DNA of 54,790 bases from positions 1-54,790 of the forward strand of contig JACAEJ010000048.1 of the NCBI GenBank assembly GCA_013388925.1, read 5' to 3'. Both the position numbers and the translations under genes were made by a program. Numbering within the stretch: position 1 is the stretch's first letter; every line of letters begins with the position of its first letter. Below the pieces are notes generated by a model that had not been told where the DNA came from, did no database searches, and saw only the letters and a list, made by a program, of their open reading frames with translations. Below are positions 42,126 through 50,338 of this stretch, one piece after another. The stretch comes from Nitrososphaerales archaeon (GTDB taxonomy: Archaea; Thermoproteota; Nitrososphaeria; Nitrososphaerales; JACAEJ01).

Positions 42126-43172
42126 TTAGCCGAGTTTGCTTACTGCACGCTCTGCCATAGATTCTAATCCTCTGTACAAGATTCGTCCCATATCCCAAAC
42201 CAATAATACTACTATGGCCGCCACCACGGTTTGTGCCGCTACCATCAGTTGCGGCAGTACAAGGACTATCAACTGTGATGCAACCCAGTATGCGACCACT
42301 ACTAAGATTATTAGGGAGAGGTTCATGAGCACTCTTTTAAAAGATCCAGAATGTTCTGAAGTTATTCCTGGCACCATATACGCAAGGGTCTCAAAGCGTA
42401 CGCCTGCAAGAGCGAACGCATTTATTGCAAATTTAACCGCTGTGAAACCGATTATAGCCAACAACATTACTAAGATGATAATGCCTACCGTTATCCCTGT
42501 ACCTGGGAAAGTTATGGTAAAAGTGGGCAAAATCAAAGGTAGAAATGAGTAGCTTACAACTATTAGTCCGACAGTAGCTATGAAGTACGCAACCATCCTC
42601 AACATTCGCTCTTTAACTTCTATATATGATGTTTTGCCAAAACTTGTTTCTGATATTATCTTGTTCGTCGCTTCGTCTACTATGAGAGATAGTCTTCTTC
42701 CCACATCCCAAAAGAAGAGCACTAGTATGGCAGCTACTACCAATTGGGATGCTGGAGTGATTATGAATCCTACTATGGGAATCATGGGCAGCAATGGAGC
42801 AAAAGACCAATATCCGATCAAGATTAAGATAATGAAAAGGAAATTGGTCAGAGTTCTGATTGCATGTCTTACTTGCTCAGAAGTCGTGCCAGGAACTAAT
42901 TCGGCCAGATTCTCCGGTTTGAAACCTGCTAAGCGAAGAGCGCTACTTACAAACTTGATGAAGAAGAAGCACAGTATTGCGAAAATAGCGATGTAAATAG
43001 TAGTGCCAAGTGAGACTCCGATGCCTGGCAAGTTCATCTCGAAGGAAAACCTCAGTAGTGGTAAGATGGAGTAGCTGATTATGATTACCCCTGTCAGAGC
43101 TATAAGATATAGCATGGTCTTGGCAAGCGTTCTCTCTATACGCCTATAGATAGAGTTGCTCTTCATGATCAA
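42126..43172 (-). CDS. Membrane protein made of two tandem repeats
   Basis: A 348-aa protein of two roughly 165-residue units. Each unit has about four membrane helices and matching motifs in the same order: IIISYSILPL / IVVSYSFLPL, LPGIGVSLG / FPGTGITVG, ALRLAGFKPENLAELVPGTT / AFALAGVRFETLAYMVPGIT, and ILVLFFWDVGRRL / IVVLLVWDMGRIL. This internal duplication implies an inverted or pseudo-symmetric channel or transporter. I do not recognise the family; its short PGxTSE loops and helices vaguely recall small-conductance channel proteins. It faces the SRP RNA tail to tail. Confidence 0.75.
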   Translation of the reverse strand: MIMKSNSIYRRIERTLAKTMLYLIALTGVIIISYSILPLLRFSFEMNLPGIGVSLGTTIYIAIFAILCFFFIKFVSSALRLAGFKPENLAELVPGTTSEQVRHAIRTLTNFLFIILILIGYWSFAPLLPMIPIVGFIITPASQLVVAAILVLFFWDVGRRLSLIVDEATNKIISETSFGKTSYIEVKERMLRMVAYFIATVGLIVVSYSFLPLILPTFTITFPGTGITVGIIILVMLLAIIGFTAVKFAINAFALAGVRFETLAYMVPGITSEHSGSFKRVLMNLSLIILVVVAYWVASQLIVLVLPQLMVAAQTVVAAIVVLLVWDMGRILYRGLESMAERAVSKLG

Positions 43173-43243
43173 TTGCTAGGAGAGTTTAACAGATGGTTCA
43201 ACCTAATAAACAAATACATTATAAAAAATGCCATCTCTTAAGA

Positions 43244-43250
43244 TTTATAT
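43244..43250 (+). promoter_or_regulatory. TATA box for the 122-aa protein gene
   Basis: TTTATAT (inside AAGATTTATATG, nearly the same context as upstream of dnaG) lies 27 nt before the ATG at 43277, implying a leaderless or nearly leaderless message. Confidence 0.5.
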
Positions 43251-43276
43251 GTATATCGATCCAAGAAAAATACACG

Positions 43277-43645
43277 ATGAACAGAGATTGGATCCAAGTT
43301 GAGTCTGGCTGCCAGATTATTACGCTTTCTAGAGATTGTCTGACCATAAGGCTAAAGCCTGATGTTGTTGAGAGGTTGAAGGAATCTATAAAGGATGACC
43401 ATATGCTAAATCAGGCCTTATTAACTCTGCTAACATGGGCTCATTACTCAACCATACCAATTATGGATGTCTTGGATGTTGTGATCGAAACTATCCCCAG
43501 TCCTCCGGGTAGCCCAGAGCTCATGAAGTTGATCATAAAGAGCAACTTTCAGGGTGGCCAGAGATTGTATGAGGTTTATCTCAACCCTGCCGATGCTCAG
43601 AAACTAGCCTCTGAGGTCAAAAAAATCATAAGTTCCAAGTTCTGA
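43277..43645 (+). CDS. Hypothetical protein, 122 aa
   Basis: Not recognised. A small soluble protein: an N-terminal strand pair (WIQVESGCQIITLSRDCLTI), a helical middle (QALLTLLTWAHYSTI, DVLDVVIETI), then LMKLIIKSNFQGGQRLYEVY and a C-terminal helix. The frame is open to 43193, but the ATG at 43277 fits the TATA box 27 nt upstream. It lies 190 nt before treT on the same strand and may or may not belong to that cluster. Confidence 0.6.
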   Translation: MNRDWIQVESGCQIITLSRDCLTIRLKPDVVERLKESIKDDHMLNQALLTLLTWAHYSTIPIMDVLDVVIETIPSPPGSPELMKLIIKSNFQGGQRLYEVYLNPADAQKLASEVKKIISSKF

Positions 43646-43834
43646 GTGGTTCACCCAAGATCAGGTTCTATGAATGAGATAAACGATCGTAGTGTAAGAA
43701 TCAATAGCGATCTGTTCCAGTAGATTTTCTTAGTAAAGTGATCTATTTGTGACATTCCCTTAACTAAAGATCCTTTTGTGGTTAATTACATTAAAGTTAA
43801 AAGGAAATAGTCATTTGTACGTATATGGGGCAAC

Positions 43835-45142
43835 ATGCCTTCCCTTCGGGATTATGAAGAAATAGTTGGAGCTGAGGCCGTCAACGAAATCATGAGTCTA
43901 GGGGAGAGGTTGGCAGGCAGGAAAATCGTCCACATAAACTCAACAAAAGTTGGAGGGGGAGTTGCAGAGATACTCCAAAAGCTCATACCTCTTCTAAAGG
44001 AGTGCAAACTGAATGTTGAATGGCGAGTCATCGAGGGAGATGATGAGTTCTTCAGAATCACAAAGGATTTTCATAATGCGCTCCATGGAACAGATGTAGA
44101 GATAAGCCAAGTGATGCTGGATAACTATCTAAAGGTGAATGCTAAGAATGCCCAACAGATGGCAGACCTAAGCGAAGCTGACTTCGTTATTATCCATGAC
44201 CCACAACCCGTGGCATTGATCAAGCATTTTCCCAAGAGGCGAGGGAAGTGGATATGGAGGTGCCATATCGATGTTTCGACGCCAAATCTGAGAGTCTGGG
44301 AGTTTCTCAAAACTTTTGTATCCCAATATAATGCTGCAGTCTTTCACATAGACAAATTTGCAAAGAAAGACCTCTTAATCAGGCAGTTCATAGTTCCGCC
44401 CTCCATTGATCCCCTCAGCCCAAAGAACATAGAAATAAATGTAGATGATATTGATAAAATTCTTTCGAAACATGGAATAAAGAAGAATAAGCCCATAATA
44501 TCTCAGATAGGTCGATTCGACAGATTAAAGGATCCTGCAGGTGTGGTCAAGATGTATAAATGTGTGAAGAACCCCGGCGAGGTCGTCGATGTATTTCGGC
44601 TCTTTATGGGTGGCGATTTTTTGGATTTCACACGTGTTGCGAAGAAGCGTATCGATTGTCAACTTGTGCTTGCAGGGGGATTGGCCACAGACGATCCTGA
44701 GGGACAGGAAGTCTACCAAGAAGTTGTGAGAATGGCTGAGGGTGATAAGGACATCAAGATATTAGTCCTTCCACCATTTGCAGATATTGACATCAATGTG
44801 ATACAGAGGGCATCCCAGGTAGTCCTCCAGAAATCCTTGAAAGAAGGCTTCGCCTTGACTGTGAGTGAAGCTCTTTGGAAAGGCACACCTGTAGTTGGAG
44901 GAAATGCGGGAGGCATACCTCTCCAGATAATCGATAGGATTAACGGTTTTCTTGTCAATAACATTGAAGAAGCCGCTGATAGAGTTCGCTTCCTTCTGAT
45001 GAACCCTCAAAAGGCTAAGGAGATGGGGAGGGCTGGAAGGGAGCATGTCAAAAAGAACTTCCTTATAACAAGGCACGTAAGGGACCATCTTTTGATGTAT
45101 CTAACTTTGGAGCTAATTCCTAGAAAACTCGTTCAGGTCTGA
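43835..45142 (+). CDS. treT: Trehalose glycosyltransferring synthase (TreT), GT4 family
   Basis: A 435-aa GT-B enzyme that joins NDP-glucose and glucose to make trehalose reversibly, in the cytoplasm. Near the N-terminus are HINSTKVGGGVAEIL and WRVIEGDDEFF, then FVIIHDPQP and WRCHIDVSTPN. The C-terminal donor domain has SQIGRFDRLKDP and QKSLKEGFALTVSEALWKG (EX7E motif) with GNAGGIPLQI. These are TreT landmarks. The start is ATG. A trehalose-phosphatase gene follows after 53 nt. TreT needs no phosphatase, so the pair implies a second route or a related phosphorylated product. Confidence 0.88.
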   Translation: MPSLRDYEEIVGAEAVNEIMSLGERLAGRKIVHINSTKVGGGVAEILQKLIPLLKECKLNVEWRVIEGDDEFFRITKDFHNALHGTDVEISQVMLDNYLKVNAKNAQQMADLSEADFVIIHDPQPVALIKHFPKRRGKWIWRCHIDVSTPNLRVWEFLKTFVSQYNAAVFHIDKFAKKDLLIRQFIVPPSIDPLSPKNIEINVDDIDKILSKHGIKKNKPIISQIGRFDRLKDPAGVVKMYKCVKNPGEVVDVFRLFMGGDFLDFTRVAKKRIDCQLVLAGGLATDDPEGQEVYQEVVRMAEGDKDIKILVLPPFADIDINVIQRASQVVLQKSLKEGFALTVSEALWKGTPVVGGNAGGIPLQIIDRINGFLVNNIEEAADRVRFLLMNPQKAKEMGRAGREHVKKNFLITRHVRDHLLMYLTLELIPRKLVQV

Positions 45143-45195
45143 ATTTTTCCTAATGCTTAGCACTATATGGCATGTTATAAAGAAGGTTAAAGTAA

Positions 45196-45963
45196 ATGAA
45201 GTATTTGTTTGATTGCTGGCATGAAATCGAAGAGTTCATGAGACCATATAGAAGAACGTATATTCTAACGGATTATGATGGCACCCTAACACCCATAGTC
45301 GATTATCCTGATCAGGCAATATTAAATCCAAATGTTAGAGATTTGTTGAAGTCTCTTGTAAAAGATAGAAGGTTCATATTAGCGATAATAACTGGGAGGA
45401 CTCTGAAAGAAATCATCCAACTCATTGGTATTGAAGGAGCCTACTACATAGGCAACCATGGACTGGAGATAAAGGGTCCTTCACTGACCTTTGTGCACCC
45501 CATGACAGAGAAACTCTCCTTGATAATTTCGAAGATATGCAACGATATGAAATCCAAGTTTGAATCCAATCATGGTGTAATAGTTGAGGATAAAGGGATG
45601 ACAGCTAGCATTCATTATAGGATGGCGCCTAAAAACATGACAGGAGAGATAAAGAAGGTTGTTAGGAACACTGTAAGATCGTATGAAGATTTTGAAATCA
45701 GGCACGGGAAGATGGTCGTTGAGATAAGGCCTAAGGTTCTTTGGGATAAAGGTGATGCAGTATTATGGCTAGTCAGAAAGTTAGGAGAAGACGGAATCCC
45801 GATATACATTGGGGATGACAAGACAGATGAAGATGCCTTTAGGAAGATCGATCGAGGTTTGACCATTCTTGTCTCGAAGAGGAGGAGGCATTCAAATGCC
45901 AGATACTATCTCAAAAGCGCAGAAGATGTGCACGAATTCCTTTACAGGCTACTTGATTTCTAG
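45196..45963 (+). CDS. otsB: Trehalose-6-phosphate phosphatase (OtsB-type HAD)
   Basis: A 255-aa HAD phosphatase. Motif I is LTDYDGTLTPIVD (nucleophile and acid Asp residues), motif II ITGRTLKEI, the cap contains YIGNHGLEIKGP, and motif IV is YIGDDKTDEDAFR. It removes phosphate from trehalose-6-phosphate. The GNHGLEI and RPKVLWDKGDAV segments are typical of OtsB. The start is ATG with AAGG about 10 nt upstream. It follows treT; no trehalose-6-phosphate synthase (OtsA) is in the window. Confidence 0.88.
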   Translation: MKYLFDCWHEIEEFMRPYRRTYILTDYDGTLTPIVDYPDQAILNPNVRDLLKSLVKDRRFILAIITGRTLKEIIQLIGIEGAYYIGNHGLEIKGPSLTFVHPMTEKLSLIISKICNDMKSKFESNHGVIVEDKGMTASIHYRMAPKNMTGEIKKVVRNTVRSYEDFEIRHGKMVVEIRPKVLWDKGDAVLWLVRKLGEDGIPIYIGDDKTDEDAFRKIDRGLTILVSKRRRHSNARYYLKSAEDVHEFLYRLLDF

Positions 45964-46109
45964 ACTATTTTATCTGTAAAACATTTTTATTAGAGTCTGA
46001 ATTATTATGTTAATGACTAGAGAATGGGAAAGCCTAGAATAATGCAGCATAATGTCCCTTTGGAAAATATTGATATCACTCTCCACTTTAAGTAGAAGGA
46101 GTTTTAACA

Positions 46110-46640
46110 TTGGAGGAAGCGAAGCCAATCGTACTGCCCTATGCCCTTGATATTGATGAGAAAGGATGGGAGAGGGGCCTTACAAGAGAAGCAGAAGAGT
46201 CTCTCTTCTTCCTCTTTGTCGATAGTGAACGTAAAAGATTACTGTTTAATGGAGCCCATGGATACACCTTCAAAAGGTTTTTTAAGAAGCCTGAAAGCGC
46301 CGTAAAAATCACTCTCATAAGTAGAATATACTATTCTGCATGGATTGCACCTTGGAAGGAGGGAAGAGGCCTAATCATTGATGGTCTGGGGCTCTTCCCC
46401 CAGGTTGTGTATTATGATGAGCTTCCTGGCTACAAGACTCTCATCAATGGAATCAAGGAATCGGCATCTGCTGAGGAATACTTGTATGTCCTGAGGAAGC
46501 ATTCACTCACCTTCCTCAACATCAAGGGTTCTAGGTCGTTTATTATCAGCCTTATTCCACAAAAAGATTCGGTCTCCGATTTGCAATCCTACATCATCCA
46601 CTCCAGAAGGGAGGCCGTTACCAACGCTCTCTCTCTCTGA
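46110..46640 (+). CDS. Hypothetical protein, 176 aa, trehalose cluster
   Basis: Not recognised. Mixed alpha/beta and soluble: an N-terminal region VLPYALDIDEKGWERGLTRE, then strands around SLFFLFVDSERKRLLFNG, aromatic ISRIYYSAWIAPW, and LIIDGLGLFPQVVYY. No cofactor motif or signal. The start is TTG with AAGGAG upstream. It ends where the frame of the coiled-coil gene is already open (CTGA at 46637-46640), so the two may be translationally coupled. The location between otsB and a GT4 gene hints at sugar metabolism or the cell surface; inference only. Confidence 0.65.
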   Translation: MEEAKPIVLPYALDIDEKGWERGLTREAEESLFFLFVDSERKRLLFNGAHGYTFKRFFKKPESAVKITLISRIYYSAWIAPWKEGRGLIIDGLGLFPQVVYYDELPGYKTLINGIKESASAEEYLYVLRKHSLTFLNIKGSRSFIISLIPQKDSVSDLQSYIIHSRREAVTNALSL

Positions 46641-46759
46641 ATCCTAGAATTCCTTGGCAACAATTCCTAAGTTTTATCGAGATATTATGGGAATCAGAAG
46701 TAGATATTGAAAGTCTCAACGCCATAAGAAAAGATGTCGTAAACAGAACTAGTAAATGG

Positions 46760-48091
46760 GTGGAGTGGCAGAAAGAAAAGATCGATAGCATTCAGAAAGA
46801 GTATCTCTCACAGATCGAAGAGGAGAAGGCAGAAGTCAGAATAGGGAATCTACAGGCTGAATACCAATCAAAGGTCACCGAAGCCGAAAATAAGATGGAA
46901 GAAGAAATCAAGAATCTAAGTAATGAACAAACAGAAGTCCAAAGTAAAATACAGAACCTCCAAGAGAAGCGGGGTGAATACTCTAACACTCTCAAGAATA
47001 TGCAGAGGCAAATTGAAGCATTATCAAAGGAACTGAATGCACCACAGAATATACGCAACGAATTATCTCTAGAACTTTCTAACCAGAAGACCAGGCTTGA
47101 AGCTTTCAGGAAGGAGCATCTCAAGCTGGAAGATTTAGTGGAGGCACAAGAAGGTATTACGGAGGAGTTGGATACAATAAGAGAGCGCCTTGCACAGATC
47201 GACATGGAGATAAATAAGATTACAGAATCAATATTCAAGGTGGAGCAAGAACTCCGCCAAGAAGATGAAAAGTGTGAGATCCTTCAGGAATCCATGGCAA
47301 AGTTGAAGAGGCAGATGGCTGATATGATGAAAGCTATGAGAGATCTTGATATGTTGGTGACGGAGAAACAAGATCACTTGGCGAGCATTCCGCACCAAAT
47401 TGAAGATGCTAAGAAAAGAGGGCATGAGGGCATCTTAGGAATTGATAAGGATTACAGACTGAAGTTTGACGAAATAAAAGGGAAGACTAACGCACTAAGG
47501 GTTGAGATGAAGCGGAAAATTGAGACCTATCAGAGAAGAATGTATGAGATGATGAGGAGAACCGATGGGATAGTATCACAGATCGACAGATTGACTGAAG
47601 CCAAATCATCATTTATTCACAGTTTCCACGATGCAACCATCTATCTCCCTAAGAACTTAGAAATCAATGCGCCTACCTTGTTGCAGATACCCCTTTATTT
47701 GGTATGTTATGAGACTCCCACTGGGCAAGGGTATACATTTTATTCTCCTATAACCGTCAAGCGTATTCGTAAGATGCTTTTATCTAAAAAGACATCTATA
47801 GAGATACGGATGAAGAACTTTGATCGAGCTGTAAAAAGTGAGCTTCATGAAGTGATAAAACAAGACTCCTCATTCGAAGAGGAGGTGCTCAATTCTTGTG
47901 CCAAACTTAACATGCTTGAGAACCCTGAAATGCCGGAAGTTCTGCTTAAGGGTCTTGCCCAATTGAGGCTCAGAAAACTAGTTTCTTCTGCTGAAGCCAA
48001 TAAAGCAATGGCGATTCTTTTCGAGTACATTCATGCTCAAAAGAGGAGAAACAAAAAACATGAGCAACCATTTCTCAAGATCTCGAGCTGA
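46760..48091 (+). CDS. Long coiled-coil protein with C-terminal domain
   Basis: At least 443 aa from the GTG at 46760. Residues 1-285 are almost pure charged heptads (KIQNLQEKRGEYSNTLKNMQ and similar), broken once near PHQIEDAKKRGHEG; then a globular C-terminal domain begins at DATIYLPKNLEINAPTLLQI and ends basic (HAQKRRNKKHE). No ATPase motif, so it is not an SMC or Rad50. The same frame is open for 41 more codons upstream (to CTG 46637), with protein-like sequence such as NPRIPWQQFLSFIEILWESE, but no ATG, GTG or TTG. The true start is unresolved. It sits 10 nt before the GT4 gene. Confidence 0.7.
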   Translation: MEWQKEKIDSIQKEYLSQIEEEKAEVRIGNLQAEYQSKVTEAENKMEEEIKNLSNEQTEVQSKIQNLQEKRGEYSNTLKNMQRQIEALSKELNAPQNIRNELSLELSNQKTRLEAFRKEHLKLEDLVEAQEGITEELDTIRERLAQIDMEINKITESIFKVEQELRQEDEKCEILQESMAKLKRQMADMMKAMRDLDMLVTEKQDHLASIPHQIEDAKKRGHEGILGIDKDYRLKFDEIKGKTNALRVEMKRKIETYQRRMYEMMRRTDGIVSQIDRLTEAKSSFIHSFHDATIYLPKNLEINAPTLLQIPLYLVCYETPTGQGYTFYSPITVKRIRKMLLSKKTSIEIRMKNFDRAVKSELHEVIKQDSSFEEEVLNSCAKLNMLENPEMPEVLLKGLAQLRLRKLVSSAEANKAMAILFEYIHAQKRRNKKHEQPFLKISS

Positions 48092-48101
48092 GCATTTCGG
48101 G

Positions 48102-49363
48102 ATGAAGATATGCGCTGTCAGTCCTTCTTTCCATATACGGGAGGAGTCTCTTATTATCTTCTTTGGCTTGGACGCAGATGTCGTGAACTGAGTCACAAGC
48201 TAAGTATAATACACCTTCGTCCCAAAGATTCGCCTATTGAGGAAGAGGTTGAATCCATAAAGGTTTACCGTGTCCCTAAGGAGCAGCCCGACCTAAGGGT
48301 AATAGGAGGCTATACACGGTTCAAAGAGCTTATTCTGAAGGTCTTCCACGGTGTAGAGACATCTGACGAGAAGCTGATAAACAGACATCTTTATGGTTTC
48401 AACGAATATTTGACAGTCAATACGCACTTTGCCGAGAGGGTGAGAGAAGTCTATGAGAAGGAGTCCTTCGATCTTCTACACGTACACGACTTCCAAGTAC
48501 TCCCACTAGGGTCGATGTTGAGGGATCTTAAGATACCTAAGATTTTCACCTGGCATATTCCATTCGCAGGAAATACACCCAAAGCATGGATAGATTTCAT
48601 CATCAAGTACATGATGGAGTACGATAACGTGGTTTTATCTACAAGAGCCTATGTAGCGACCGCTATCCACTACGGCTTGCCTTGGAATAAAGTCTCATGC
48701 ATACCCCCCTTCATAGCGGTTGAGAAGCCTCGGGAGAACGAGTTTCGAAGTAAGTATGGAATAGATCAAGATGAAAAGATCATCCTATGTGTTGCAAGGA
48801 TAGATTCGTTAAAGGGTCAAGATAGGTTGATCAGGGCGCTACCGGATATAGTTAAAGTGCTTCCTAAGATAAAATGTGTATTTATTGGAAACGGTTCCAT
48901 GACAAAGGATGTTCTAAAGGTGAATGAAAAGAAGATATATGATCAGAATCTGAAGCAACTTGTAGAAGAGCTGCATTTAAAGGATATCATCATATTCACT
49001 GGGAGTATATCTAGGAGTGAGTTGATGCAGGCGTACGAAGCGTGTGATGTCGTAGTGCTACCTTCGATCATGGAGGGATTTGGCTTAACTATCACGGAGG
49101 GGATGGCATTCGGCAAACCTGTGATCGGATCGGCTACGGGCGGAATATTGGTGCAAATCTGGCCAGGGATCAACGGTTATCTTGTTGAGCCTGGTGATCC
49201 AAGACAGCTGTCTGAAGCACTCATAATGATACTTTCCAACGAATATCTGAAAAGATCGTTAGGAGCTAAGGCGAAGGAGGTTTATGAACGGGAGTACAGC
49301 TTGGAGAGAGGGGTTAGAGATAACCTGGAACTGTATGAACGTGTGCTAGCCACTAGAATATAG
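48102..49363 (+). CDS. GT4-family glycosyltransferase with an apparent N-terminal frameshift
   Basis: A GT-B enzyme of about 420 aa. From ATG 48102 the peptide MKICAVSPSF matches the usual GT4 opening strand. One base is missing in the run at about 48121-48130, and the frame then continues as FFPYTGGVSYYLLWLGRR, the usual next segment. The frame used downstream can also start at ATG 48110. The rest is intact: FDLLHVHDFQVLPLG, FTWHIPFAG, CVARIDSLKGQDRLI, PSIMEGFGLTITEGMAFGKP (EX7E) and GSATGGI. Donor and acceptor sugars unknown. It is the last gene of the trehalose cluster. Confidence 0.85.
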
Positions 49364-49530: not shown

Positions 49531-49618
49531 GCTGCGGTAGCCAAGCCAGGTAAGGCGACGGCTTGCTAAGCCGTTTCCCCATCGGGGATCGTGGGTTCGA
49601 GTCCCACCCGCAGCGCCA
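49531..49618 (+). tRNA. tRNA-Ser (GCT), CCA encoded
   Basis: Type II cloverleaf: acceptor GCTGCGG/CCGCAGC, D arm, anticodon stem ACGGC/GCCGT with loop TTGCTAA (anticodon GCT), long variable arm (TCCCC-ATC-GGGGA), T arm GTGGG/CCCAC with TTCGAGT, discriminator G at 49615. CCA follows at 49616-49618 and is encoded, unlike in the other three tRNAs here. No intron. Confidence 0.95.
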
Positions 49619-49702: not shown

Positions 49703-50338
49703 CTAAAGCCAAGAAATGCCACTATGCCCACAACCATAACACAAATTCCAACAATTAGCAATAAACTCCCATTGCAGTTCTGTTGTTCTTTCCAAACTCG
49801 ATCTTCTTGCTTTACCTAATAAAGCATCTTCAAGAGGGATAAATAAAACTGGAGTGAAGAACATTTTTGCATCCTTTAGTCTATCAACTAATTCAAGAGT
49901 TGCAATAATATCTTCTTCTGTCTCATCAGGCATTCCAGTCATAATTGTGCAGAGTGGATACCACTCATAATCATTCATAATTCCGATTCCTTGACAAACT
50001 AACTCTGGCCAATTATCGACGCTAAAAGGCAATGCTTTTCCCTTCATATGTTTTTTCATTAACCTCGGGCTTCCTGTCTCAATTCCAACTTCAACAATGA
50101 TGTATCTCTTTTTTCTTAACCTTCTAATCGTCTTTTCCATCAAAATAGGGGTCAACTTCTCCAATATCTTGGGATCATAGATTATTGGTGCTAAAGAGGC
50201 ATGCGAGAGGCAAATATATTCAACGCCTCCATAACTTGCTATGGTTCCATATAGTTTTGCAATCTCTTTTCTATTGGGAATAAAACCGTCATATGATTTG
50301 TATGCCTTGTTAATACCATATTTATGATTTACCACCAT
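49703..50338 (-). pseudogene. Remnant of a B12-binding-type radical SAM protein
   Basis: A 211-aa frame that matches only the middle and C-terminal part of a radical SAM protein: YIIVEVGIETGSPRLMKKHM, YPLCTIMTGMPDETEEDI and MFFTPVLFIPLEDALL. The CxxxCxxC cluster and any B12 domain are absent; a stop codon lies just before the first ATG. At the C-terminus the frame ends in GHSGISWL, while another frame at the same place reads LIVGICVMVVGIVAFLGF followed by RKRRR, a credible lost tail. So it is 5'-truncated and probably frameshifted. The stretch is AT-richer than its neighbours and abuts tRNA-Ser. Confidence 0.7.

Follow-up and report, generated by a model that had tools for sequence, protein, structure and literature searches.

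In Sulfolobus acidocaldarius, a pathway consisting of the GT4-type trehalose-6-phosphate (T6P) synthase (TPS) Saci_1249 and the T6P phosphatase (TPP) Saci_0016 has been proven, with the activity of the synthase established both biochemically and genetically, and growth under salt stress requires trehalose (PMC7688234). In Thermoproteus tenax, a GT4 glycosyltransferase (GT) is encoded in one operon, msc-gt-tpsp, with an MscS-like channel and the enzyme TPSP; it has no TPS activity alone and activates TPSP, and complex formation has been shown (PMC3634074). The archaeal TreT pathway is represented by the solved structures 2x6q and 6zj4. Here we describe a trehalose locus in a 54,790-nucleotide stretch of a Nitrososphaerales archaeon (contig JACAEJ010000048.1; the whole stretch is called the window), in which genes for TreT and an OtsB-type phosphatase lie together with p122, encoding a small companion of TreT, and with a coiled-coil gene directly upstream of a gene for a GT4 glycosyltransferase, GT4w. 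With its known enzymes and two new conserved partners, the locus is a real, conserved and partly new archaeal trehalose arrangement.

The locus resembles S. acidocaldarius in that a GT4 candidate synthase distant from TreT and a HAD phosphatase occur alongside TreT and without GT20; furthermore, orthologues of Saci_1249 adjoin otsB in the window's own family (genomes G001, G003 and G005) and in other families. Unlike Saci_1249, GT4w falls into a clade of its own, comes with a coiled-coil partner and lacks the ~35-residue N-terminal insertion, and its neighbour is a canonical OtsB, not a HAD protein of the Saci_0016 type. The association of a GT4 gene with T6P phosphatase function and an MscS-like channel recalls T. 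tenax, whereas the fused GT20-TPP found there is absent here, no coiled-coil protein has been described there, and gene order and content differ. The locus is not of the T. tenax type, since the window genome has no fused TPSP and no GT20 and the membrane protein TM348 has no Pfam mechanosensitive-channel match. The window treT is the same as that of the archaeal TreT pathway by domain, closest structures and tree, and differs from it in its p122 companion; to our knowledge, a TreT with such a companion has not been described.

The window genome is a 1.28-Mb assembly of 89 contigs and is 94% complete. It was compared with an order sample of 151 genomes and a phylum sample of 398 genomes; all counts below come from these sampled, partly incomplete genomes and, owing to shared ancestry, loci do not represent independent events. 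The features of the locus are as follows.

42126 to 43172, minus strand: TM348, a membrane protein with two similar halves, divergent to p122-treT; no Pfam match above cut-off
43277 to 43645, plus strand: p122, the 122-amino-acid TreT companion; homologues directly upstream of treT
43835 to 45142, plus strand: predicted TreT, trehalose glycosyltransferring synthase (GT4); PF21269, structures and tree
45196 to 45963, plus strand: OtsB-type T6P phosphatase (HAD-IIB); TIGR00685 and PF02358
46110 to 46640, plus strand: 5' fragment of the coiled-coil gene, encoding the N-terminal domain (the '176-amino-acid unknown'); aligns to the N-terminal part in relatives
46627 to 46638, plus strand: (CT)6 tract, the frameshift site; DNA alignments with G012, G018, G040 and G081
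46641 to 48091, plus strand: 3' fragment of the coiled-coil gene, encoding the coiled coil and C-terminal domain; frame open from upstream of 46640
48110 to 49363, plus strand: GT4w, a glycosyltransferase of family GT4 that carries an OtsA-like HIPF motif and has an altered 5' end; orthologues and tree

The open reading frames (ORFs) of a preliminary description were all present at their positions and on their strand, with inter-ORF gaps across the cluster of 189, 53, 146, 119 and 18 bp, in order, and its identification of TreT, an OtsB-type phosphatase and a GT4 enzyme was upheld by family searches. The 150-, 176- and 443-amino-acid ORFs drew only generic coiled-coil or sub-cut-off matches from Pfam and NCBIfam.

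One coiled-coil gene split by a frameshift

The ORFs of 176 and 443 amino acids, previously taken for two unknown proteins, belong to one gene that is split by a 2-bp frameshift in the window and intact in three other genomes. Both align to a single continuous protein in G012, G018 and G040, where it measures 643-653 amino acids and the open frames 648-655 codons (across relatives the intact protein has 643-660 amino acids), and this one continuous frame in the relatives rules out two separate proteins. The DNA alignment revealed that the CT tract at 46627-46638 holds two bases (an extra CT) more in the window than in the relatives, so that the TGA at 46638-46640 is read in frame. Past the break, the second frame resumes the relatives' protein exactly (NALSL, then NPRIPWQQ), the window's NPRIPWQQF... 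carrying on from the relatives' NALSLNPRVSWQQ. The 3' fragment lies in a continuous open frame of 518 codons; because this frame continues the relatives' protein, the GTG at 46760, which opens the 443-amino-acid ORF, is not the true start. The neighbouring gene is altered as well: relatives of GT4w begin MKICxVSQSFFPYTGG, from an ancestral start at the ATG at 48102. In the window, a deletion of 4 bp between 48118 and 48119 leaves only an internal ATG for the rest of the frame and accounts for the ORF start at 48110. Outside the indels, identity to orthologues is 50% for the coiled-coil protein and reaches 78% for GT4w, and no indels were seen in TM348, p122, treT or otsB. Judged from sequence, the two indels (+2 bp and -4 bp) may be either assembly errors or real mutations.

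Alignments and profile comparison showed that the coiled-coil protein has the layout of its family, also seen in paralogues, namely an N-terminal domain, a coiled coil and a C-terminal domain ('IPxYLV'); against Pfam, NCBIfam and PADLOC the family gave nothing more than generic coiled-coil or domain-fragment matches below cut-off. The proteins of family f20 are shorter (527-549 amino acids), and in profile comparison their N-terminal domain alone matches the coiled-coil family with a probability of 96% (E 6.5e-9) and their C-terminal domain alone with a probability of 49% (E 1.8e-4). As the end domains match separately and crossed N/C controls were near 0, this relation is not due to coil periodicity. 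The structural model of the N-terminal domain was poor (pLDDT 56, pTM 0.28), so that its fold search (best E 2.5) is uninformative. The wider family occurs in 24 of the 151 order genomes, some of them with weak matches, and includes a second copy in the window genome (G000:C21, L018:3291-4922); its mostly unrelated neighbourhoods indicate that this protein type is not specific to trehalose, though one branch is tied to GT4w.

Conserved partners of TreT and GT4w

The window TreT scored 196 bits against PF21269 (cut-off 27), also matched PF00534 and falls inside the TreT clade with support of 100/100, and its closest solved structures are the TreT structures 6zj4 and 2x6q; its score against the NCBIfam Thermococcales equivalog was 413, under the cut-off of 775. 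With a TreT N-terminal domain and a GT4 C-terminal domain, the protein is by its sequence a predicted TreT. Homologues of p122 were found in 9 of the 151 order genomes, in each of them immediately before treT and in the same orientation, and the phylum sample added one strong homologue (G167) that is also directly upstream of treT. The arrangement therefore holds for 10 of 10 clear homologues; two weak phylum matches (E 4e-5 and 2e-4) stand outside this count. The gap between p122 and treT is 32-57 bp in the relatives and 189 bp in the window, where the 122-amino-acid ORF described ahead of the cluster is present and the homologues favour a start at 43277 over one at 43193. No Pfam family matched p122 above cut-off. 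Its AlphaFold2 model (pLDDT 87) gave SIN1 PH domains as top structural matches, which were weak (E 1.3e-3, TM 0.61) and are suggestive only of a PH-like fold. TM348 or a homologue is encoded divergently upstream at 9 of the 10 p122 loci (the exception is G067), the homologues in this position being 28-76% identical (G001, G003, G005, G012, G018, G031, G040 and G167). Shorter proteins weakly similar to TM348 are encoded divergently from treT at the f20 loci L193 and L206.

At all 13 loci examined, which represent six family groups (the window, G040, G018, G012, G081, G167 and seven f20 loci), the coiled-coil gene lies immediately upstream of GT4w in the same orientation, separated from it by -4 to +43 bp. 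These 13 are the GT4w orthologues whose surroundings were read, the remaining f20 GT4w-type matches being outside the count, and at L190 (G228, f20) the coiled-coil gene was assigned by alignment with other f20 proteins rather than by profile search. Its link to treT is looser: the pair is beside TreT at 4 of the 13 loci, and beside a phosphatase at 8. In f20, GT4w is followed at six of seven loci by a HAD phosphatase that is a full-length homologue of the TPP Saci_0016 (31-35% identity, E 1e-26 to 1e-37), and treT lies nearby in G222 and G274; MscS-type channel genes neighbour the pair in G299 and G234. G012 has the same neighbourhood as the window, but with the pair on the opposite strand and nadE in between, which indicates that the one-strand run of the window is not a conserved operon. 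The refuting test set in the preliminary description, whether homologues of the unknown genes are never near treT or otsB, gave a divided answer: p122 is always at treT, whereas the coiled-coil protein is mostly elsewhere, yet always at the GT4 gene in the relevant clade. The scaffolded trehalose pathway raised there is partly supported: this idea and that of a stress-linked trehalose cluster gain comparative support from the two fixed pairings, but the coiled-coil gene is tied to the GT4 gene and not to treT and otsB, from which it lies apart in G018, G040 and G167.

Among the surroundings, a radical-SAM fragment at 49703-50338 (minus strand), near a tRNA-Ser gene (49531-49618), covers the domain only in its C-terminal half and is probably a gene remnant. 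A sigma-70 promoter scan showed no excess, although a sigma-70 model is not meaningful for an archaeon. A defence system was also considered and rejected, PADLOC having returned only generic coiled-coil matches and one weak NsnC match to GT4w (E 0.0097).

OtsB and its likely synthase

OtsB scored 185 bits against TIGR00685 (cut-off 68.05) and 169 bits against PF02358 (cut-off 27), as expected of a T6P phosphatase. Neither the window genome nor the other checked genomes with an unfused otsB yielded a full-length GT20 (positive control G002, 524 bits), and OtsB thus requires another synthase. In all eight order-sample genomes that have both, otsB lies within ~4 kb of a gene for a ~453-amino-acid GT4 protein, directly beside it in G001, G003, G005, G017, G022 and G032, with one MscS gene in between in G031, and with treT and p122 in between in G067. 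These GT4 proteins group with Saci_1249 (tree support 98/98), whose gene was placed in locus L183, in a genome of 2,225,959 bases, by exact matches of all four checked published primers (primers from PMC7688234). MscS-type channels are encoded beside GT4-TPS/otsB in G017, G022, G031 and G032. In the window, the coiled-coil-GT4w pair takes the position directly after otsB, which is the TPS slot of G001, G003 and G005, genomes whose treT and otsB are 85-86% and 74-77% identical to those of the window. The preliminary description took a phosphatase beside TreT as a hint of a second product or a paired control; a GT4-type synthase/phosphatase pair, as in S. acidocaldarius (PMC7688234), explains it better than a need of TreT for a phosphatase, and we did not retain OtsB serving TreT as the principal reading because otsB tracks GT4-TPS across genomes and the TreT product carries no phosphate.

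Orthologues of Saci_1249 are widespread outside Sulfolobales (L158-L185 and L092-L104), often beside otsB, a Saci_0016-like HAD gene, TreT or MscS. In G002 (L105:2119-4293), G006 and G020 the T6P phosphatase domain lies inside a frame of 739-751 codons, that of G002 being a GT20-OtsB fusion, so that trehalose routes differ within the group.

The HIPF motif, which is also found in OtsA and Saci_1249, is present in 10 of 11 GT4w sequences (HIPY in G167) and in every row of the TPS clade, while every TreT row has HID. GT4w is 75-78% identical to three orthologues, and outside its own clade it matches members of the TPS clade best (up to 216 bits, compared with up to 114 for TreT). It is not a GT20 (OtsA) protein, matching PF00982 just in short stretches (best residues 71-154, 44.8 bits total, against 524 for the G002 fusion).

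Two possible routes to trehalose and their alternatives

We give an even chance to the reading that this is an osmotic- or salt-stress trehalose locus, with TreT and p122 in one module and a second, synthase/phosphatase route in the other, in which GT4w would be the synthase and the coiled-coil protein its partner. In the first module, which has the TM348 gene divergent from p122-treT, the predicted TreT would convert nucleoside diphosphate (NDP)-glucose and glucose to trehalose, and p122, linked to it by gene order, could act as a dedicated small partner or regulator, possibly through a PH-like domain that binds protein or membrane. In the second, GT4w would most likely transfer glucose from NDP-glucose to glucose-6-phosphate, giving T6P, from which OtsB would then remove the phosphate; the coiled-coil protein would most likely hold or regulate GT4w, perhaps with the phosphatase, a scaffold role suggested by its constant pairing and its shape. 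The product of GT4w and the stress regulation are likewise what we infer.

Several observations weigh against this reading. GT4w forms its own clade (96/98), separate from the Saci_1249-type TPS clade (98/98) and therefore not a member of it; its sister group is unsettled in the tree (75/37), and the approximately unbiased test rejects neither GT4w with TPS (p 0.16) nor GT4w with TreT (p 0.09). For this reason, T6P-synthase activity is suggested by the slot, the partner phosphatase, the motif and the lack of an alternative synthase, and we regard the clade as a candidate for a second kind of GT4 T6P synthase. G081 has both the coiled-coil-GT4w pair and a TPS-type GT4, the latter adjoining an MscS-like gene, which breaks mutual exclusion and indicates that the two types are not simply interchangeable. 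The pairs in G018, G040 and G167 have no trehalose gene nearby (the G081 contig is too short to judge), Saci_0016 belongs to a broad HAD family, and in f20 a 3-hydroxy-3-methylglutaryl-CoA (HMG-CoA) reductase gene follows the pair, or the pair and HAD gene (L188, L189, L190, L191, L192, L193 and L206), which possibly reflects a link to lipid synthesis or chance. Three of these points, namely the distinct clade, the pairs away from trehalose genes and the HMG-CoA reductase, would fit a pair that makes another glycoside (a glycolipid, a glucosylglycerol/glycerate-type solute or a surface glycan), with its adjacency to treT-otsB due to chance or co-regulation only. We consider this somewhat unlikely, given that the pair occupies the TPS slot after the window otsB, that OtsB would otherwise have no synthase in the genome, and that TreT or a phosphatase neighbours the pair at the loci counted above.

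A role for GT4w as activator of another trehalose enzyme, with the coiled-coil protein in the same complex, has its precedent in T. tenax, where GT4, MscS-like channel and TPSP share an operon (PMC3634074), and would agree with the MscS genes near GT4-TPS/otsB and near the coiled-coil-GT4w pair in several genomes. The T. tenax GT, however, depends on a partner in which GT20 and TPP are fused, searches of the window genome and of other genomes with the pair recovered no full-length GT20, and GT4w retains the OtsA-like HIPF motif; we regard this role as improbable. Decay of the second module in the window is a quite possible outcome, if short of an even one: both the coiled-coil gene and GT4w carry indels, their neighbours from TM348 to otsB carry none that were seen, and the truncated radical-SAM fragment lies just downstream, so that the pair may be pseudogenes here, with only TreT (with p122) and OtsB functional. 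Against this, the genome is an assembly of 89 contigs and both proteins keep their identity to orthologues outside the indels. Such decay would be compatible with the two-route reading elsewhere.

The yeast trehalose synthase complex has non-catalytic subunits. The present locus shares with it the idea of a non-enzymatic subunit that organises synthase and phosphatase; the likeness is one of concept, and no sequence relation was found, none having been sought. An unlikely extension is that the coiled-coil protein serves a new GT4-type TPS as its own scaffold or regulatory subunit without enzyme activity and joins it to a phosphatase, as an archaeal counterpart, independent in origin, of the eukaryotic complex, with p122 as a comparable dedicated subunit of TreT.

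The frameshift illustrates how a 2-bp indel can make one gene look like 'two unknown proteins'. GT4-type T6P synthase has been reported as narrowly distributed, mainly in Sulfolobales; the orthologues identified here occur in several Nitrososphaeria-related families, by otsB and MscS genes. Finally, the two conserved partners, one per pathway, open archaeal trehalose-synthase complexes to direct testing.

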